Origin: Haliotis asinina
Lineage: Eukaryota; Mollusca; Gastropoda; Lepetellida; Haliotidae
DNA length: 64,000 nucleotides
NCBI RefSeq assembly: GCF_037392515.1
Contig: NW_027133892.1
Location: forward strand, 1-64,000
Direction: 5' to 3'
Of this stretch, positions 11,631 through 45,889 are shown piece after piece. Position 1 is the stretch's first letter, and each line of letters opens with the position of its first letter. Made by a program: the position numbers and the translations under genes. The notes under the pieces were generated by a model, which had not been told where the DNA came from, did no database searches, and saw nothing but the letters and a program-made list of their open reading frames with translations.

Positions 11631-12023
11631 TTACTCCGGGAAACCCAGACAGTCTTTGTAGTGACCATGGTGGAAGCACCGTCTCTCGTCCACACACGTC
11701 TTACGTTGCGTATTGATGCCTGAGGGCTCCAGGGTCAAGTGTGATAGATTCATGCACAACTTGAAGTGGCAGAGATGACTGACAGTTAAGTCATCCCTGA
11801 AGTCCTTCAAGTTGTGCAGGAAATACCAAGCCCTGTTTGCCCGGAGTCTCATCCTTTTCGTCCGCAACGTCGTGTTGAGTACAGGGTAGCCATCCTTGTC
11901 AACTGAACCTTCCCACAACTGACATTGGTTGTCTGGGCGTCCGATGTTAATTCTGCATCTTAACCTGCTCATCAGTGTCTGTATCTCAGTTTCCGTCAGG
12001 ATCATTTCATACAAAGAACACAT
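11631..12023 (-). CDS. Small His-Me finger (I-PpoI-like) endonuclease, 130 codons
   Basis: The ATG start at 12021-12023 opens an uninterrupted frame to a stop at 11631. The core is CQLWEGSVDKDGYP (residues 34-47), a WYFLHN segment, then SHLCHFKLCMNLSHL (82-96), GINTQ (102-106) and a Cys/His-rich end (C110, C116, H118, H119, H121, C125). By the spacing I remember for I-PpoI, H83 would be the general base, N104 the metal-binding asparagine, C34, C85, C90 and H95 one zinc site, and C110, C116, a histidine and C125 the second. All are present, so the fold and activity look intact. Such proteins cut DNA and often act in mobile introns or domesticated loci. It is surrounded by minisatellites, and introns or upstream exons cannot be excluded. 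No promoter is evident. Confidence 0.72.
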   Translation of the reverse strand: MCSLYEMILTETEIQTLMSRLRCRINIGRPDNQCQLWEGSVDKDGYPVLNTTLRTKRMRLRANRAWYFLHNLKDFRDDLTVSHLCHFKLCMNLSHLTLEPSGINTQRKTCVDERRCFHHGHYKDCLGFPE

Positions 12024-12184
12024 CTTAATAATCGTATCTGCAACAAAGACATTGGTAGGTTGAGTGAGTGGGTCAAATGCCCGCCATCAAGTCACCTTCA
12101 CAGTCATCACAGACTGATTTGTAATTGACAGTAAGGGAAAGGTTATCACATTAAAAGAATTTCAGAACAGAAACAGAAATAAAT

Positions 12185-23825: not shown

Positions 23826-26800
23826 GGTGATGGTGGATACAGATACATACATTGTGGGTATGATGGTGGATACAGATACATACATTGTGGGTATGATGGT
23901 GGATACAGATACATACATTGTGGGTATGATGGTGGATAAAGATACATACATTGTGGGTATGATGGTGGATACAGATACATACATTGTGGGTATGATGGTG
24001 GATACAGATACATACATTGTGGGTATGATGGTGGATACAGGTACATACATTGTGGTTATGATGGTGGATACAGATACATACATTGTGGGTATGATGGTGG
24101 ATACAGATACATACATTGTGGGTATGATGGTGGATACAGATACATACATTGTGGGTGTCATGGTGGATACAGATACATACATTGTGGGTATGATGGTGGA
24201 TACAGATACATACATTGTGGGTATGATGGTGGATACAGATACATACATTGTGGGTATGATGGTGGATACAGATACATACATTGTGGGTATGATGGTGGAT
24301 ACAGATACATACATTGTGGGTATGATGGTGGATACAGATACATACATTGTGGGTATGATGGTGGATACAGATACATACATTGTGGGTATGATGGTGGATA
24401 CAGATACATACATTGTGGGTATGATGGTGGATACAGATACATACATTGTGGGTATGATGGTGGATACAGATACATACATTGTGGGTATGATGGTGGATAC
24501 AGATACATACATTGTGGGTATGATGGTGGATACAGATACATACATTGTGGGTGTCATGGTGGATACAGATACATACATTGTGGGTATGATGGTGGATACA
24601 GATACATACATTGTGGGTATGATGGTGGATACAGATACATACATTGTGGGTATGATGGTGGATACAGATACATACATTGTGGGTATGATGGTGGATACAG
24701 ATACATACATTGTGGGTATGATGGTGGATACAGATACATACATTGTGGGTATGATGGTGGATACAGATACATACATTGTGGGTGTCATGGTGGATACAGA
24801 TACATACATTGTGGGTATGATGGTGGATACAGATACATACATTGTGGGTATGATGGTGGATACAGATACATACATTGTGGGTATGATGGTGGATACAGAT
24901 ACATACATTGTGGGTATGATGGTGGATACAGATACATACATTGTGGGTATGATGGTGGATACAGATACATACATTGTGGGTATGATGGTGGATACAGATA
25001 CATACATTGTGGGTATGATGGTGGATACAGATACATACATTGTGGGTATGATGGTGGATACAGATACATACATTGTGGGTGTCATGGTGGATACAGATAC
25101 ATACATTGTGGGTATGATGGTGGATACAGATACATACATTGTGGGTATGATGGTGGATACAGATACATACATTGTGGGTATGATGGTGGATACAGATACA
25201 TACATTGTGGGTATGATGGTGGATACAGATACATACATTGTGGGTATGATGGTGGATACAGATACATACATTGTGGGTATGATGGTGGATACAGATACAT
25301 ACATTGTGGGTATGATGGTGGACACAGATACATACATTGTGGGTATGATGGTGGATACAGATACATACATTGTGGGTATGATGGTGGATACAGATACATA
25401 CATTGTGGGTATGATGGTGGATACAGATACATACATTGTGGGTATGATGGTGGATACAGATACATACATTGTGGGTATGATGGTGGATACAGATACATAC
25501 ATTGTGGGTATGATGGTGGATACAGATACATACATTGTGGCTATGATGGTGGATACAGATACATACATTGTGGGTATGATGGTGGATACAGATACATACA
25601 CTGTGGGTATGATGGTGGATACAGATACATACATTGTGGGTATGATGGTGGATACAGATACATACATTGTGGGTATGATGGTGGATACAGATACATACAT
25701 TGTGGGTATGATGGTGGATACAGATACATACATTGTGGGTATGATGGTGGATACAGATACATACATTGTGGGTATGATGGTGGATACAGATACATACATT
25801 GTGGGTATGATGGTGGATACAGATACATACATTGTGGGTATGATGGTGGATACAGATACATACATTGTGGGTATGATGGTGGATACAGATACATACATTG
25901 TGGGTATGATGGTGGATACAGATACATACATTGTGGGTATGATGGTGGATACAGATACATACATTGTGGGTATGATGGTGGATACAGATACATACATTGT
26001 GGCTATGATGGTGGATACAGATACATACATTGTGGGTATGATGGTGGATACAGATACATACATTGTGGGTATGATGGTGGATACAGATACATACATTGGG
26101 GGTATGATGGTGGATACAGATACATACATTGTGGGTGTCATGGTGGATACAGATACATACATTGTGGGTATGATGGTGGATACAGATACATACATTGTGG
26201 GTATGATGGTGGATACAGATACATACATTGTGGGTATGATGGTGGATACAGATACATACATTGTGGGTGTGATGGTGGATACAGATACATACATTGTGGG
26301 TATGATGGTGGATACAGATACATACATTGTGGGTATGATGGTGGATACAGATACATACATTGTGGGTATGATGGTGGATACAGATACATACATTGTGGCT
26401 ATGATGGTGGATACAGATACATACATTGTGGGTATGATGGTGGATACAGATACATACATTGTGGGTATGATGGTGGATACAGATACATACATTGTGGGTA
26501 TGATGGTGGATACAGATACATACATTGTGGGTATGATGGTGGATACAGATACATACATTGTGGGTATGATGGTGGATACAGATACATACATTGTGGGTAT
26601 GATGGTGGATACAGATACATACATTGTGGGTATGATGGTGGATACAGATACATACATTGTGGGTATGATGGTGGATACAGATACATACATTGTGGGTATG
26701 ATGGTGGATACAGATACATACATTGTGGGTATGATGGTGGATACAGATACATACATTGTGGGTATGATGGTGGATACAGATACATACATTGTGGGTATGA

Positions 26801-26950
26801 TGGTGGATACAGATACATACATTGTGGGTATGATGGTGGATACAGATACATACATTGTGGGTATGATGGTGGATACAGATACATACATTGTCGCTAGTGT
26901 GGGTGTCATGGTGGATACAGATACATACATTGTCGCTAGTGTGGGTGTCA
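23826..26950. repeat. 33-bp minisatellite, about 94 units
   Basis: The unit reads GATGGTGGATACAGATACAT, then ACATTGTGGGTAT. Units are nearly identical over 3.1 kb, with rare variants: GTC for ATG at about 24150, 24550, 24780, 25080 and 26130, and GGCTATG near 25540, 26000 and 26398. The last two units carry an insertion containing CGCTAGT. Because 33 is eleven codons and the unit has no stop in the used frames, both strands are open over 1077 codons (VDTDTYIVGMM one way, MYVSVSTIIPT the other). That symmetry, the uniformity and the lack of flanking coding sequence mark it as a tandem array rather than a protein gene. Confidence 0.95.
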
Positions 26951-37891: not shown

Positions 37892-39955
37892 TCAACCCCG
37901 CAATTGCCTCAACACACGCTCTCTTTTTTGGGCCTCCCACTTTGCTTTGCGTTCAACCCTGGAGGCTTTGAGGGTTCTTACTTGATCAAGTCTTTCAACA
38001 GAAGCTGCTGTTAGTTCATTAGCTTCTATTGCAAGCTTGTTCATCACCTGTGTAATGTGGCAAGTACCCTCATTGAAGGAGGCAACTGCAGATGCGACTG
38101 CCCGATGCAACCGCCTCTTGTCAACAAAGACAGTCTTTGGACAGCGGGACCAGATCACAGAATGCAATCATTCATTAGCATTCTGTGTCTTTCCCTTTGT
38201 CATCCTCTTAAGGAGGTTTTCATCAGACATTCTTTGATACACAGGGACCATTTGTTCGGCAATATGTGCATCAAGGTAATGTTTGATGTTGTTTTCATGA
38301 GAAGGAGGCTCTTGATCATTGGCAAGTGCTCTGTTGTAAACACACCAGCTGGAGGGGCCATTGGGACACCTACTGTGATGGGGAGCATCATCAGTAGACA
38401 CACAGTGACACAAACTCGCCCAGATGGCATTCCTCGTACCATCGACGTTACCAACATTGTTACTGGTGGCAAAGCCATAATAATACTGCAGTTTCAAAGC
38501 TTTTTCTTTTGTCAGTTTCCCTCTGCCTCTACCACCCAATCTACATTCTTTTGACAAGTTCAGAAGAGCTGTGCCCATCCTTTCATGAGCATGATTAATA
38601 AAGTCTTCCTTGTCAATGCTGATGTCCGGTTATTAGGCTGAAGGTCGTTGATAGCCTTGTGGGTTTTGTCGCCATCTGAAAGTATACATGTACATTATAC
38701 TTTTCCAATGATCGGGACCATAGCCTTTTAGCAGCTTCCACTTCCATGGCATTGGAGCTGCCTTCATAGTTTTGACAACACTGAAGCATGTCCTCCCTCC
38801 ATACCACTGTCTGAACTCTGCAGAGTCCTGTTCCAGACTGGTGACATGAAGGGTACATGCGTGACAGTATTTTGACAGGACTTCATAATCAATCACAAGA
38901 CCTGTCAAAACATCAATGACCGCACCAACACCATAATTGGAAGTGTGGCCTCTCTTCTGCCATGATCCGTCATAACTGACAGTGATGTCCAATGAACATC
39001 ATCTGAAACAGTCCGTTGTTCAGCATAAGCCTGTTTGATAATTTCCACACTCTCAGTCAAAACATCCTCAGTATTTCAATAACAACTTTGGAAAGAATGT
39101 CTTGTTTGCGTTGAAATGTCTTATCGTGGAGACCTTCCATTCCAAAAACCAAACAAAATTTTTTCATTGCAGCATGACCAAGTCCTGTCTCTGACAAAAA
39201 GAGCATGAACATATCATTCACTTGAAAGGGGTTGTTACCTGCTTGCTTACCTGACCTTGGTGAGGTGTAGTTCTTGGACACACACATCTGACAGTTTTGA
39301 CAAGTCAGCATAATATTTATAGCAAATCCAAACCTATCAAAATTGTCACTAGTAGTATAGGGAATGACAGTTCTGGACCACTTTACATATAGGGTGTGCT
39401 AAAGCTAAGCAAAGCTAAGCAAAGCTAAGCAAAGCTAAGCTAATTTGCTTAGCTTTGCTTAGCTTTGCTTAGCTTTAGCACACCCTATATGTAAAGTGGT
39501 CCAGAACTGTCATTCCCTATACTACTTCACTTTTTTCAAAATTCAAAGAACCTTGTTCATGGCATGATGGACAGTAAATTTCTTGAAAGAATAAATTCAT
39601 TTGTCTCATATCAATCAACATCCACTCAGGTTTAGGCTCGTCATTGTCAAGGACATGAGATCGGGCGTTTTCAAAACTTTTAAATTTTGCGAACTTAATT
39701 AATGTCACTGCGTGAATTCGATTCAAACGATTTCTCACTTTCAGTGGCTCCAGTGGAAACGATGTCCTCAACAGCGTGGTCCCCAGACGATCCCAAAGCA
39801 TCTAAGATGTTCAAGCTGTCAGAATGGGGGTTGATCGGGCTGTCAACACTTGTCTGATCGCTGACACCGCATTTTAAACGTGCCTGCCGCAACTGACTTG
39901 CCCTGCGCCTCTTATTCTTACCATAGGCGTGTTTTGACCTGGTTTTGGTTCTCAT
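37892..39955 (-). pseudogene. Mutator-like transposase (PF20700-type), broken by frameshifts and a fold-back insertion
   Basis: The gene starts at ATG 39955 with a basic leader (KNKRRRASQLRQ), as in DNA-binding transposases. Parts in order are a CPSCHEQ motif near 39545, CQNCQMC near 39295, VSYDGSWQKRGHTSNYGVGA at about 38980 with its catalytic-type aspartate, GSSNAMEVEAAKR near 38755, SDGDKTHKAIN near 38675, KLQYYYGFATSNN near 38490, NAIWASLCHCVSTDD near 38430 and WSRCPKTVFVDKRR near 38150. I recognise this as the Mutator-like transposase domain common in invertebrate genomes; it would move its own element by cut and paste. At least five frameshifts (about 39710, 39050, 39000, 38800-38640, 38167) and the insertion at 39351-39526 have silenced it. 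Confidence 0.82.
39351..39526. mobile_element. Fold-back element with perfect 83-bp arms and 5-bp target duplication
   Basis: Arms 39351-39433 and 39444-39526 are perfect reverse complements around a 10-base loop. The inner part of each arm is built of AAAGCTAAGC decamers. TCACT flanks both sides (39346-39350 and 39527-39531), as expected of a target-site duplication. It has no coding capacity. Removing the element and one TCACT copy would leave the surrounding transposase reading frame continuous. Confidence 0.85.
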
Positions 39956-40190: not shown

Positions 40191-40746
40191 AGTTTTCGTT
40201 TAAAATCACTACCGCGGGAAAACGACCATATCCTTACATGGACTATTTATATTTAGAATGTTTTTCACCAGCAACATGGCGGAGACGACGAGCTTTCTAG
40301 CGATGTATAACATAAACGGGTTTGTCAGTGTTGGGTGGGCGTTGTCGTAGGTGAAAGTTGGGATATTCTGGGTTTGTTTACGGACACATTTAAATATTAT
40401 CACACACTTGCTGATGTTTGTACCGGTTTATATTACTTAAAATGACTTTATTTTGAAAACAACATATTGTAACACGAAGAACACGCGATAAATACACGAA
40501 AAAAATAAAAATCTCGATTTTGATATTTTGAAGCAAAGTTGTCAATTTAAGGTGCCGTGTCTGGCCTGAACGACATCGAAAAACACTGATTTTACAGTTG
40601 TATACGCAACAAACACAAATAAATAGCCCAATGTGTATTGATTTGAAAGCAAATTGCTCTATAAATACCATACAACCCTAGTACATGTGCTGCAGGAATG
40701 GTATTTTCTATTATTCATTTGTACTTTCCGATCTAGAACGCGAAAA
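40191..40746. other. Spacer between the transposon and the viral element; no gene seen
   Basis: AT-rich. It contains no readable transposase or viral frame and no obvious terminal repeat. Confidence 0.35.
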
Positions 40747-40820
40747 TTCAACCATATTCAACCACGTGTATGGTTGAATATACGTGGTTGAATGGTTGAA
40801 TATGGTTGAATTCAACCATA
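40747..40820. repeat. Palindromic cluster at the capsid end, possible parvoviral terminal hairpin relic
   Basis: The 8-mer TTCAACCA or its complement TGGTTGAA occurs seven times in 72 bases (40747, 40758, 40771, 40785, 40793, 40803, 40811). The left arm 40746-40767 pairs with 40781-40810 except for an 8-base bulge, forming a long hairpin with CACGT/ACGTG in the stem. It lies within 15 bases of the capsid stop codon, where a linear parvovirus genome has its terminal palindrome. Confidence 0.5.
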
Positions 40821-40833
40821 TACGAATGTTCCT

Positions 40834-42660
40834 TTATGTTCTCTGCTTTTTTCTTGGTTGTTCGTCTTCCGAACTTTCATTCTCCAGTTCAGTTGTTTCT
40901 TTTGCTTTCAGTATTTGTGGGTTTTCTATTCTGCTTTGCATTTTTATTTGGTCTCCTATTGGTCTTCCTGTTGTGTCACATACTATATTTCTGCTTGCGT
41001 CCAGCGAACTTGGTTCTATTCCTGGTTGTAGTGGCCAGTCTCCTGGTATGAAGTGTTGTCCCATTGTTATTTGTCTTTCGTCTTCTTCTTCTTGTCTGTT
41101 GCTGTGTATTAGTTTTTCTCTGTTGTTGTGGCTTTCCATCAGGTGATATTGTATTCTTGGCATGAAGTTGGGGAATAGTGGTATGTAGTTTTGTACCATT
41201 AATTCCACTTCAGCTGTATAAGTGATTCTGGCTTGTACGAATCCGTTAACTAATTGTATGCTTTTTCCATTGTTTATGAACATTGGATATATGCTAAGTG
41301 CTGCTAGTGGAGCTTGTTCTGGGAAGTGGTAGTTTAAGCCTGTTGTTGCGTGGAAGTTATCTGTGCGGTATTGTTTTCTTACTTTAGACAGATCCCAGTC
41401 GTTTGTCCAATGTTCTTGCGTTGATGCTGCTTGCAGTCCTACTTGTTCCCATGTTTTTTGTGATAGTGGTACGTTGTTTTCTGTTTTGCATGGTTTGTGT
41501 CTTCTTTCGTACATTACTGTGTTTAGGATCCATTCTTTGCTTGGGTTCCAAAACTCGTATGAGAATCCTGTAGTTGATGGTACTGTTGTTGTTTCGTGGT
41601 CGTTGTAGATATCGTATAGAATGGTTGGATCCATTTCTGTTCTTCCTATTTTGTTCCAGTCTATGTTTTCTTCGTCTGTTGTTAGAGTGTTTTCCTCTAG
41701 CCATTGTTTTGGGAATGTTCCTCCAATCACTAGTCTTGGTAGTACGCAGTCATTCAGGTCAGTTGGTAGTGCTTGTGTGAAGTTTTTGTTGTGTGATTCT
41801 CTGTTCGATACGTTTTCCATCGTATCCACTTTGTGCTCTTTTTATGTCTTTCATTTTTGTTGATATGTTGAGTGGTGTTAGACTGTGGTAACTGTCTACG
41901 TTCGCCAGTATTCTGAAGTCTTGTGATATGGATACTCTTGGTTGATTTTCTGTTACTGGTGGTGCATCGAAATGTCCTTGCATTTCGTTGATTTCGAACC
42001 CGAATCTTTAGACTCTGTATTTGATTGCTCTTTGTTCGAAATATTTCATTTCTGCGTTAGTCATGCTGGCTGCACATCTGTTGTATGGTATGAAGGAAAA
42101 TGGCGAGAACCATTCTATTTTTATTTGGTTTAAGTTGTCTGGTTTGTAGTCTTGTGGATTTCCTTGGTAGAATTCAGCTTTGGGATCTTCCCATCCTTCT
42201 TGTGCATTTAATGTTGTTTCTACTTTGCTGTTTCCTCGTGTTAGTGTGACTTTTTAGGTAGATTGTTGCAGTAGTATTCGCAAGTGTTTTCAGTGTATAC
42301 TGGTAGAATAATCCACATACTTTTTTCGTACGTTTCGTTGATGGTATTGAACCTTTCGTAGTGTTCTGTTCTGTCTCTTACTGTTGTTTCTTGCCTTGCT
42401 GGCCCTGACCCAGATACGTCGTCTGCTGTGACGTCATCTTGTACTGTTCCTAGGCCTGCTACTGTGCTACTGCTTTGCTGTGACATCTTGTTTTGCTGTG
42501 TGTTTCCTGCAAGATATTTTTGTAATGTTACTCTGAAGTTTGATCGGTGGTATTGATTCCATAAGTGTTGTCTTTTGGCATCTGTTTGGTATTTTAATGT
42601 TCTTTGTTTGTAGTTTAATAGTTGTTGCCGTAGTCTTAAATTTTTTTTGGTGGGTTGCAT
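40834..42660 (-). pseudogene. Endogenous parvovirus-like capsid (VP) gene, broken
   Basis: From ATG 42660 to TAA 40834-40836 the span is 609 codons, a usual size for a phospholipase-less parvoviral capsid protein. Signs of the family are a structural-protein composition rich in N, T, W and Y, the block WFSPFSFIPYNRCAASMT near 42090, and FHATTGLNYHFPEQ near 41350. The end is acidic, then basic (EDEQPRKKQRT). The breaks I can see are a frameshift in an A-run near 42252, a TAA stop at 42008-42010 and a frameshift near 41830; the last 331 codons are open. No phospholipase A2 motif is seen here. Family assignment leans on the neighbouring NS1 and on gene order. Confidence 0.72.
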
Positions 42661-42774
42661 TTTGTATAGTTTTCTTAGTCTTTGATCGGAGTAGTTGGCC
42701 CATGCTTGTGTTTCGGAATTGTGAGTTGTAATTTTCTGTGGTGGTTGTTCTTTTGTTTTTTTAGGTTTTTTTTG

Positions 42775-43240
42775 TCATGGGAGTGATTTTATGGTGCTTC
42801 CTTGTTTATGTTTTTGCATATATCTATAAAATTGTGCATTAGCTGCATTTCTATTTTGTTGTATCTTTTCTTGTTGTTTACGTTGTTGTTCTCGTATGCG
42901 TTGTTGTTCTATTTGTTGTTGTTTTCGTCTTTGTTGTTCTGCTTTTTCAATGTCTACTAATGTTGGTCTGCGTGGTCTTACTTTTCTGGGTCTTTTGTGC
43001 ACGCCGAATACTCTTTCAGCTATTTCTATGTTCTTTTTATCCTGTTCTGTTAAGGTACCGTATGAGCTTCTTTCGACTGCACCCACTGGGTCTAATTTTC
43101 TGATGTGATGTTCGACATTGCTGTGTATGATGCCTTTTGTGTTTTTTCCCAATTTTTGTCAACCAGTTTCTTGAATCCCCTCCCCGCTGCTTTAGCAGGT
43201 TTTGTTTTGGATGCTTTTGTTATTAACCTGGCTAAGCTCG
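42775..43240 (-). pseudogene. Basic, glutamine-rich frame in phase with the capsid gene
   Basis: From a non-ATG opening at 43152 the frame runs 125 codons to TGA 42775-42777. It shows VGAVERSSYGTLTEQDKKN, a KRPRKVRPRRP basic cluster that could act as a nuclear signal, and a Q/R/K-rich helical stretch. It is in the same phase as the capsid start at 42660, separated only by the TGA. Just upstream, after a shift at an A-run (43141-43147), a lysine-rich stretch up to about 43240 looks continuous with it. It may be an N-terminal extension of the capsid protein or a separate small viral protein. Confidence 0.5.
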
Positions 43241-43396
43241 GTACTTTTACCGAGTTTTAAGAGTCCCTTACCTGTGTTTTGAAAATGGCGTCGTCCGAAG
43301 CAGTGTGCCTCGTTCTGAAAGTATATGTCGACATGACCGGAAGTGTCAATTCAATGCATCGACACCATGCATAAGTTTATTTCGGTTTAATACAAT

Positions 43397-43714
43397 TCAT
43401 ACAAGTTCGTGCGCGGTTGTTTTGAAGCGAATTCCGTATCTGTCTGTTGCCCAATGTAAGTCCAGAGCGCATTCTCTTGCCTCGACATCCCACATGTCGT
43501 GGTGTTCCATTTCCGGTATGCCACAGGCGCAGCATAGTATTTGTCCTGAATTGCAGCCGTGGGAGATCATTCTGGCGTTTTCTGTACATCGGAGAGATTC
43601 GATCGTTGATTTCGTGGTTCGCAGGTCCCAGTCTTCGAGGTCGCTGACCATTAATAGTTTGAGCATTTTCTTGTCCCTTTTATCCAGCTCGCCTAAGTCG
43701 TATCGGATTAGCAT
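43397..43714 (-). CDS. Cysteine-rich 105-codon frame of the viral element, function unknown
   Basis: The ATG at 43712-43714 directly follows a strong splice-acceptor-like stretch (TTCTTATATTTTTCAG). The product has a charged start (LGELDKRDKKMLKLLM), then a Cys/His cluster CNSGQILCCACGIPEMEHHD that could bind zinc. It sits between the replication and capsid genes, in the same direction. I know no family for it. Downstream, CAGGTAAG near 43271 is a good splice-donor word, so this segment could be an exon of viral or chimaeric mRNA. The frame is intact. Confidence 0.45.
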   Translation of the reverse strand: MLIRYDLGELDKRDKKMLKLLMVSDLEDWDLRTTKSTIESLRCTENARMISHGCNSGQILCCACGIPEMEHHDMWDVEARECALDLHWATDRYGIRFKTTAHELV

Positions 43715-43820
43715 CTGAAAAATATAAGAATTTTTTTTTTTGTTAAGGTAGTATGAGTCAATACTAATTTTAGCTAAGTATAGAAACTTTTTTCCAATGA
43801 ATATCGTTTAAAATATTCAC
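43715..43820 (-). other. Candidate 106-nt intron between NP-like and cysteine-rich frames
   Basis: On the minus strand ACAG|GTGAATATT begins at 43820 and a T-rich tract with TTTTTCAG ends at 43715, immediately before an ATG. The length, polypyrimidine tract and GT-AG ends fit a small intron, such as those used by parvoviruses to switch between gene products. Confidence 0.4.
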
Positions 43821-43837
43821 CTGTTTTATTTCTTCTT

Positions 43838-44383
43838 TTATTGAAGGAGTGTTTTCTTAGTCATGTTGTGCGTTTTGGGGCGTACTAGCATGAGGTGTTC
43901 TCGGGCTTGCTTGCGTTTTGTCCATTCCATGTGTTCTGTTATGGTGGCTAGGCTCCCTGACTTGTACTGGATGAGTTGTGGGATGAACGGATTCGTTTTC
44001 GGGTTGTATACTGCTGTCAGCCAATAGTTGTCCATCTGTGTCTTGTTGTAAATTTCTGCTGCTTCCTCCGGGTAATATTCCACCGCTAGGCAGAAGAATA
44101 TTCCCATTAGCTGGTAGATCTTTTTCCAAGCTTCCGCTCCCACTCCGTTCACCGTATCGAACCTGTGCATCCATTCTTCCATTTTTCGGGGTAGTCTCCC
44201 GTAGGTCTGGTGCCACCATCTCGGCTTTATCGGTGGTTGCTGGGGTCCTGTGAATGGAAAGGGAAGGGTCATTTTTTTTATCTTTAACATTGATGTTCGT
44301 CTCAACCACTTCGAGTATTTCCGCGTCTCCTTCGGAATCGAAGTCGATTTCGTCGGAGACCGGAGTGTTTGGTGGTGCTTCAT
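43838..44383 (-). CDS. NP-like accessory frame overlapping the NS1 tail
   Basis: ATG at 44381-44383, 181 codons, stop at 43838. For 527 bases it lies in another phase over the NS1 C-terminus. The product looks like a folded protein (PRWWHQTYGRLPRKMEEW, then GAEAWKKIYQLMGIFFCLAV and NYWLTAVYNPKTNPFIPQ), whereas the NS1 tail in the same DNA is low-complexity and acidic or polar. That contrast implies the NP frame was the selected one here. An NP gene overlapping the NS1 end is a feature I know from hamaparvoviruses such as chapparvovirus-like agents; sequence homology to those is not checked. The frame is unbroken. Confidence 0.6.
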   Translation of the reverse strand: MKHHQTLRSPTKSTSIPKETRKYSKWLRRTSMLKIKKMTLPFPFTGPQQPPIKPRWWHQTYGRLPRKMEEWMHRFDTVNGVGAEAWKKIYQLMGIFFCLAVEYYPEEAAEIYNKTQMDNYWLTAVYNPKTNPFIPQLIQYKSGSLATITEHMEWTKRKQAREHLMLVRPKTHNMTKKTLLQ

Positions 44384-45503
44384 CTATGCGCAGTATTTGG
44401 CAATCATCTGAATCGTTGTCGGAGACACAATCCGACTCTGATTCGTCATAGGCATGTTTGAAAATTGCATTCCACATGAGTGGATTTAATGGTTTTGTTA
44501 TTTTCTTTAGGATAGGTGCTGGTTTCATTTTGTACAGGTGTGTTCTGGCTTTGAATGCTGCATTTTGATTTGGGTAGTATTTCGTTAAGCTGCTATTTGT
44601 TGTTACAAGTAATGACGTTCGTTTGAGCAATATGTCGGGTCTGCATTTCTGTCTGACCATTGTGTCGGCCCCTTCAAAGATAAGTTTTGCCTCTTCCATT
44701 GTGTTCTCGTCTATGAGGCATTGCTCTTCTACTATGATGACGTTCCTATCTGTACAATCCTGCCAAATGAATTGTGTATTTCCTGTCAATTTTGCTTCGC
44801 CGTAAAAACGTGCTATTGGTAGTAACGATCTGGCGACCATGCTTTTTCCTGCACTCGGTGGCCCGTAAAGGACGAAAGTGTTTTTCTTACTTTGTGTTTT
44901 GTTTAAGACTTGATGCAAGTCTCTTACTAGTTCTGCTGTGTTGATGTTGTTGTGTTCCATGAGTTTATGGAAGGTGTCTACAGATTTTTGTACTGATTCG
45001 TACTGTTGTTCACTTTCTTGTTCTGAGTGTGTGGCAGTGTATTCGTTCAGGAGTTGGTCATAAGTTACGCTCTGACTCCTTTGCTGTTCCAGACTTAGTG
45101 CTTTTTGGACAAGTGTATTGTAATTGCTCTGCGCAATAATGTCAAAGAGTTGTCTTGTTTGTTTTGTATTGAGTTTGTCATCGTTGTAGAGCTGTAATAT
45201 TTGTCCTGCATGTTTCAGGTTGTGTTGTTTTATCAAATCTATGAGAAACTTTAGGCTGTTCGCACATGTTGTTGTTGTTTGTGTTTCCGGTTCCTGTTCC
45301 GGTTGTGTTGTGGTGTCGGGTTTGTTTTGTTTTGCTAATTCCCGAAACTGGCTAGTGCATTCTACTATGTTTCTTGGTGTGGTTTGCACGTATTTTATCC
45401 AACCGTGTGGATTTCTCATTTTTTGCGTGTTTGGCCACATTTGTTTGGGATAAATTTCTTTGACCTTTTCCATAAATTTTTTGAAATGGTGGTTCTTGGT
45501 CAA
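43857..45503 (-). CDS. Endogenous parvovirus-like NS1 (SF3 helicase), N-terminal nickase domain missing
   Basis: An open frame of 548 codons (first in-frame ATG at residue 11; the frame opens after a stop near 45530). Residues 214-221 are the Walker A loop GPPSAGKS, 255-260 VIIVEE is Walker B, and 298-303 LLVTTN fits motif C with its sensor asparagine, a full superfamily 3 helicase core. Before it NPHGWIKYVQTTPRNIV (31-47) resembles the end of the nickase region. The HUH (His-x-His) and catalytic tyrosine parts, expected 100-200 residues upstream, are absent: DNA beyond 45540 is non-coding. The tail (after about 350) is acidic and overlaps the NP-like frame. Such proteins unwind and nick viral DNA during rolling-hairpin replication; this one could at most retain ATPase activity. 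An unbroken helicase frame in a decayed element suggests recent insertion or retained function. Confidence 0.85.
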   Translation of the reverse strand: MTKNHHFKKFMEKVKEIYPKQMWPNTQKMRNPHGWIKYVQTTPRNIVECTSQFRELAKQNKPDTTTQPEQEPETQTTTTCANSLKFLIDLIKQHNLKHAGQILQLYNDDKLNTKQTRQLFDIIAQSNYNTLVQKALSLEQQRSQSVTYDQLLNEYTATHSEQESEQQYESVQKSVDTFHKLMEHNNINTAELVRDLHQVLNKTQSKKNTFVLYGPPSAGKSMVARSLLPIARFYGEAKLTGNTQFIWQDCTDRNVIIVEEQCLIDENTMEEAKLIFEGADTMVRQKCRPDILLKRTSLLVTTNSSLTKYYPNQNAAFKARTHLYKMKPAPILKKITKPLNPLMWNAIFKHAYDESESDCVSDNDSDDCQILRIDEAPPNTPVSDEIDFDSEGDAEILEVVETNINVKDKKNDPSLSIHRTPATTDKAEMVAPDLRETTPKNGRMDAQVRYGERSGSGSLEKDLPANGNILLPSGGILPGGSSRNLQQDTDGQLLADSSIQPENESVHPTTHPVQVREPSHHNRTHGMDKTQASPRTPHASTPQNAQHD

Positions 45504-45539
45504 GTGGTAAGTTGATTTGTGTTTTCAAGTTAAGACTTG

Positions 45540-45889
45540 ATGCCTTATCATACATGTTCCTGACACACTATATTTTTTGCGCTATTTTGTTGTTTATCAC
45601 CATGTGCATCGAAATTCCAGCAATGTGGCGGTGTTATGCGAGTTATGGAGTCTATACATCGCCTCTTGATATGACATCAAAGCATACGTAATTCAAGGTA
45701 AATAAAATTAAGATTTTAAGCGTGAAAAATATATCGGTTTGTTTGGGTTTTTTCATCTTTTTTTTATTGTAAATCAATTTCTTTACATACATACAATACC
45801 GTTGTGATATTATTCATTGATAAAATAAACTAAATGTAATTTAATGATGAAGGCAAAGTAAGCATAGAGTTGATTTTAACTGCTGCAAA
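45540..45889. other. Right flank of the viral element; no gene seen
   Basis: The 5' end of the viral genome, nickase coding and a second terminal palindrome should be here but are not recognisable. The sequence is AT-rich up to the repeat half that follows. Confidence 0.4.

Follow-up and report, generated by a model that had tools for sequence, protein, structure and literature searches.

We analysed a 64,000-nucleotide stretch of contig NW_027133892.1 (positions 1 to 64,000; hereafter the window), in which a parvovirus-like genome had been predicted on the minus strand. The results showed an A-rich viral block on that strand, at about 40,745-45,560, which differs from its surroundings, and we conclude with a probability of about 90% that this is a decayed endogenous parvoviral element with a truncated NS1 and one hairpin. 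Such elements are an already known kind and form a fossil record of the family; the block is a further example. All of its frames run in one direction on the minus strand, with a 555-codon frame first, a 181-codon frame overlapping it, and shorter frames after these (Table 1). Helicase, overlap and order were as the original prediction had described them, but the genome is incomplete, with NS1 truncated and its nuclease domain absent.

The 555-codon frame was compared with Pfam, the PDB and a protein database. It contains GPPSAGKS, VIIVEE and LLVTTN, which we take to be Walker A, Walker B and motif C of the superfamily 3 (SF3) helicase predicted there. Pfam Parvo_NS1 matched residues 122-315 (E 3.6e-23, 82.3 bits, cut-off 20), and the next-best family was papillomavirus E1 (PPV_E1_C; E 6.6e-11, 42.3 bits, cut-off 26.5). 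The best profile match of the helicase, which might have fallen to a non-parvoviral SF3 family, thus fell to a parvoviral one, and a papillomavirus-type SF3 helicase was rejected on the same comparison. In the PDB, the best matches were Rep40/Rep68, proteins of adeno-associated virus (E 1.4e-12 to 8.9e-12). A pair of chains called Non-structural protein 1 also matched (E 4.3e-10 and 1.4e-9); E1 reached only E 0.08. The protein-database search returned Gray fox amdovirus NS1 as its sole match (E 4.1e-5; 1 of 7843 candidates), with 22% identity over 284 columns.

This alignment pairs query residue 65 with residue 315 of the amdovirus protein, indicating that about 250 N-terminal residues are missing. 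The viral base composition stops where these residues, the place of the HUH nuclease, would begin. Between 45,300 and 47,500 we found a single HUH-like word, on the opposite strand, where 2.3 were expected by chance, and a nuclease domain lying nearby was rejected. By analogy with other endogenous elements, we read the absent domain as a truncation, and the element is not an intact parvovirus. With the nuclease and the left end missing, the copy should neither replicate alone nor work as a virus.

The limits of the block were drawn from base composition. On the minus strand, A/T skew was at least 0.2 in 45 of the 48 100-base steps between 40,801 and 45,600, and ranged from -0.23 to 0.21 in 20 such steps of the flanks (ten per side); no skew like that of the block was found elsewhere in the window in 2-kb steps. 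At the left junction, the skew fell from 0.31 in 45,501-45,600 to 0.00 in 45,601-45,700. We then compared the frames with 2000 first-order Markov copies of the block as a control for length by chance. Runs of 335 or 555 codons occurred in none of the copies, a 177-codon run in 46 and a 181-codon run in 34. Three-base periodicity reached z 10.9 in parts of the block, and a codon-bias scan trained on capsid-like piece d only (40,837-41,841) ranked the named frames of the block top in most windows.

Several results weigh against an endogenous parvoviral element. For the codon-bias scan there is no test of significance, and beyond the capsid-like tract most of its scores are below zero; it can therefore rank frames but no more. 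The first two NS1 windows show no three-base periodicity (z -0.4 and -1.0), and several other windows show it weakly. In the right half, no capsid family of Pfam was matched, and the best PDB value was E 0.82: for capsid-like piece a, Pfam gave a match below threshold (PF12167, E 0.041) and the PDB E 1.1, and for piece d Pfam gave none and the PDB nothing better than E 0.82. The AlphaFold model of piece d, made without an alignment, has a predicted local distance difference test (pLDDT) score of 30.5 and is meaningless. Finally, an assembler might have misjoined an exogenous viral genome or a contaminant to host DNA, and the open NS1-like and NP-like frames would suit such a join. The capsid-like frames are broken, though, one end of the virus is missing, base composition differs directly outside both edges, and transposase remains lie on one side, so that we regard a false join as very improbable.

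The two edges of the block were examined for viral and chromosomal features. The right end carries a palindrome with 20-nt perfect arms and 30 pairs in two stem-loops, and its DNA fold has a z of -6.87, with none of 200 shuffles equally stable. Seven of the 12 copies of TTCAACCA/TGGTTGAA in the window lie within it. Some parvoviruses have an NS1 that binds ACCA-type repeats. A repeat search detected no comparable palindrome at the left end; the palindromic cluster of the original prediction is therefore present, but at one end only. No target-site duplication was found, the longest word shared by the two edges being 7 bases (equalled in 901 of 1000 shuffles), a result that is neutral for end-joining. 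The window DNA extends 40.7 kb and 18.4 kb beyond the two edges, and its base composition differs outside both. Three open pieces on the minus strand at 38,171-39,398 are what is left of a Mutator-like transposase (Pfam PF20700); they end 1.3 kb from the palindrome, and their position beside it argues for chromosomal DNA. A perfect inverted repeat at 39,351-39,526, with 83-nt arms and a 10-nt centre, holds (AAAGCTAAGC)n and extends into the transposase frame; it may have arisen by fold-back duplication or be an artefact of the assembly. No second viral copy was detected in the window, the best tblastn match of eight pieces in the flanks having E 0.23.

These features suggest how an endogenous parvoviral element of this form may have arisen. 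The source would have been the DNA of an autonomous parvovirus, broken inside NS1 on one side and near the right-hand terminal hairpin on the other, then inserted into the chromosome, presumably through end-joining by the host, with decay since. In the source virus, to judge from the family, NS1 would drive rolling-hairpin replication, the palindrome would be the right-end replication hairpin, an NP-like regulator would be made from a spliced message with its acceptor at about 44,248, and the capsid gene would lie downstream, on the right.

The predicted NP-like frame overlaps the end of NS1, and the results showed more overlap than chance would yield with NS1 taken as given. A run as long as the one that the frame has within NS1 (174 codons) was reached in none of 5000 codon permutations and in 3 of 5000 synonymous permutations. 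NS1 came top of the codon-bias scan in 12 of the 14 windows with starts from 45,570 to 44,400, and the NP-like frame came above NS1 in all four windows from 44,310 to 43,861. This switch falls near an acceptor-like tract ending at 44,248, in which 16 of 18 bases are pyrimidines; it is the best acceptor-like tract in the block, and 4 of 1000 Markov copies equal it. The natural reading of the sequence is that the NP-like frame would be a spliced accessory gene over the C-terminal tail of NS1. The frame matched no Pfam family and nothing in the PDB better than E 0.33, and its AlphaFold model is mostly helical with low confidence (pLDDT 48.7). AATAAA words, two of them at 43,842 and 43,830, were rejected as signals, with five seen in the block against 8.04 expected.

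To the right of these frames lie four capsid-like open pieces, which we read from their frames as one gene, probably interrupted by two stop codons and two or more frame shifts. The broken capsid gene of the original prediction was thus recovered as open pieces, but its capsid identity has no sequence match behind it and is putative, resting on place, sense, size and damage. Windows over pieces b and c had codon-bias scores of +24.7 to +26.0, and strong scores were confined to about the last 500 codons of the tract. The length of the tract depends on its start. If the basic piece is included it comes to 774 codons, and if reading begins at the stop ahead of piece a, to 646; the three Met codons within piece a would give 608, 550 or 494. 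No phospholipase region was found in it with Pfam. The profile search placed NS1 in Parvo_NS1 but gave no family for the NP-like and capsid-like frames.

The contrast between open and broken frames bears on a possible host use, in which the truncated helicase and the NP-like frame would have been kept open as host genes, for example to act as RNA or protein against related viruses. NS1 and the NP-like frame are indeed open and the breaks, four or more, lie in the capsid-like tract, but all four would fall within the capsid-like span at random with P 0.115. Breaks placed by length alone at this P give no signal of selection on NS1, and a gene kept by the host is given a very small chance.

Between the NP-like and capsid-like parts, we found the small cysteine-rich frame and the basic frame that had been predicted, and both are of lengths within chance in T-poor DNA (a 136-codon run in 325 and a 127-codon run in 529 of the 2000 Markov copies). 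Length alone proves nothing here, and the two frames are likely, though unproven, genes. The Cys-rich frame ranked first in all four windows of the codon-bias scan at 43,770-43,321, with mostly negative scores; it matched no Pfam family and nothing in the PDB better than E 2.6. Frame 2, comprising the basic frame and capsid-like piece a, ranked first in eight of nine windows at 43,140-42,241, and the basic frame may have encoded the N-terminus of the capsid protein. A possible short intron just upstream of the first ATG of the Cys-rich frame is a pattern match made without a chance control, and its acceptor lies outside the best eight of the block.

We further searched for relatives of the element. 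A protein search with NS1 residues 175-345 gave no match of E 10 or lower among 192 candidates, and a two-row profile of the window NS1 and the Gray fox amdovirus protein recovered that amdovirus alone among 7989 scored candidates. No relatives were confirmed in viral contigs with NS1, two alignments, capsid-like piece d, the NP-like frame and the helicase core as queries, nor in genome contigs with NS1 and the helicase core. As no other amdovirus was recovered, the protein database seems poor in parvoviruses, and missing matches are not evidence of novelty.

The element was then compared with known systems as described in excerpts of four published reports. By position only, an accessory NP-like frame overlapping the NS1 end is the layout of Hamaparvovirinae and Bocaparvovirus. 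The NP overlap occurs in chapparvoviruses, which, with their relatives, are described as lacking the phospholipase; for chapparvoviruses, a capsid protein of 450-500 aa is given (excerpts of PMC6631224). In the chapparvovirus-derived elements of spider, scorpion and beetles, stops and shifts break the frames, and N-terminal NS parts are missing in some; in the fuller ones NS1, an overlapping NP and the capsid gene stand in the same order as here (same excerpts). In contrast to those elements, the present one has a Cys-rich frame between NP and capsid and keeps a terminal palindrome, and the likeness is one of description.

Derivation from a hamaparvovirus, of the chapparvovirus type, could explain the overlapping NP-like frame, its mostly helical model (at the low confidence given above; chapparvovirus NP is predicted to be mostly helical too), the phospholipase region not found by Pfam, the one possible capsid start that gives 494 codons, and the strong codon scores over only about the last 500 codons; chapparvovirus elements are also present in arthropod genomes (excerpts of PMC6631224 for the NP prediction and the arthropod elements). 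Four of the five possible capsid lengths (774, 646, 608 and 550 codons) nevertheless exceed the chapparvovirus range in that source, the sole protein match is an amdovirus, albeit from a parvovirus-poor database, and the overlap is common to bocaparvoviruses too (excerpts of PMC12298888). We consider this derivation unlikely. No sequence match ties any frame to Hamaparvovirinae, and the label is unproven; of the interpretation first offered, the endogenous parvovirus-like element is well supported, but the hamaparvovirus resemblance is neither shown nor excluded, given an overlap shared with bocaparvoviruses and a capsid length of 494-774 codons.

In the bocaparvoviruses minute virus of canines and human bocavirus 1 (HBoV1), a mid-genome NP1 overlaps the NS1 C-terminus, with alternative splicing and mid-genome polyadenylation (excerpts of PMC12298888). 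The present element resembles them in its accessory frame over the NS1 C-terminus and in the splice-like tract at 44,248; it differs in that the NP-like frame has no family match, the phospholipase was not found and AATAAA is no commoner than chance. Likeness to Amdoparvovirus consists in the sole protein match and in a genus without the VP1 phospholipase, which is described as missing in both Aveparvovirus and Amdoparvovirus (excerpts of PMC9707805), and is set against an identity of 22% over 284 columns.

Descent from a lineage near Parvovirinae is somewhat easier to accept than a hamaparvovirus origin, although we hold it with less than even confidence. Four sets of parvovirus-related mollusc sequences in print lie nearer Parvovirinae and branch outside all known genera (excerpts of PMC5013282); they have a divergent parvovirus-type SF3 helicase, as here, and are likened to the element by description only. 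If the host is a mollusc, these sequences would fit. The Gray fox amdovirus match, the best PDB match to Rep40/Rep68 and the missing phospholipase region, likewise missing in Aveparvovirus and Amdoparvovirus, point the same way, but amdovirus identity is low, and with few parvoviruses in the database and few helicases in the PDB, best matches say little.

We suggest, tentatively and in the knowledge that it may well prove wrong, that the endogenous element records an undescribed invertebrate parvovirus lineage, of genus level or deeper, that combined a bocaparvovirus-like spliced NP overlapping NS1, an extra Cys/His-rich gene between NP and capsid, a phospholipase-free capsid gene and hairpin ends based on TTCAACCA. 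If this were true, the NP layout would be ancient in the family or would have arisen more than once. With its largely collinear order, its open NP-like frame over NS1 and its single hairpin, the copy raises the question of whether the NP layout of bocaparvoviruses and chapparvoviruses is old. Invertebrate lineages besides arthropods and flatworms appear thinly sampled in the literature considered here, and the element could be used as a probe to find relatives still living in the host group.

Table 1. Features of the parvoviral block in the window
Feature	Position	Strand	Remarks
Approximate left junction	45,530-45,560	.	End of viral base composition
NS1-like frame, 555 codons	43,857-45,524	-	Carries SF3 helicase motifs; lacks the N-terminal nuclease domain
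Helicase core	44,544-44,900	-	GPPSAGKS, VIIVEE, LLVTTN
NP-like frame, 181 codons	43,838-44,383	-	ATG at 44,383; overlaps end of NS1
Putative 3' splice site of NP-like gene	44,248-44,268	-	Pyrimidine tract ending in CAG
Possible short intron	43,715-43,823	-	Donor-like CAGGTGAA from 43,823; acceptor-like TTTTTCAG ending 43,715
Cys/His-rich frame, 136 codons, 6 Cys	43,397-43,807	-	From first ATG: 43,397-43,714, 105 codons
Basic, Gln-rich frame, 127 codons	42,775-43,158	-	In frame with capsid-like piece a, one TGA (42,775-42,777) between
Capsid-like piece a, 177 codons	42,241-42,774	-	Frame 2 relative to NS1
Capsid-like piece b, 81 codons	42,008-42,253	-	Frame 1; ended by TAA at 42,008-42,010
Capsid-like piece c, 82 codons	41,759-42,007	-	Frame 1, as piece b
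Capsid-like piece d, C-terminal, 335 codons	40,834-41,841	-	Frame 2 relative to NS1; ends TAA
Right-end palindrome, 74 nt	40,745-40,819	-	Two adjacent stem-loops, 40,802-40,819 and 40,746-40,801

Elsewhere in the window, Rfam and tRNA scans gave no match. A reverse transcriptase extends over two adjoining frames at 327-1,586 on the plus strand (Pfam RVT_1; E 1.5e-11 for the first and, short of the cut-off, 1.1e-5 for the second). At 11,634-12,086 on the minus strand, a 151-codon frame with a homing-endonuclease zinc-binding loop (Pfam PF05551, E 2.1e-11) was found in what is apparently animal DNA. At 23,828-26,891 a 33-base unit is repeated in tandem about 93 times, with 98% matches, and the array is open in several frames on both strands.

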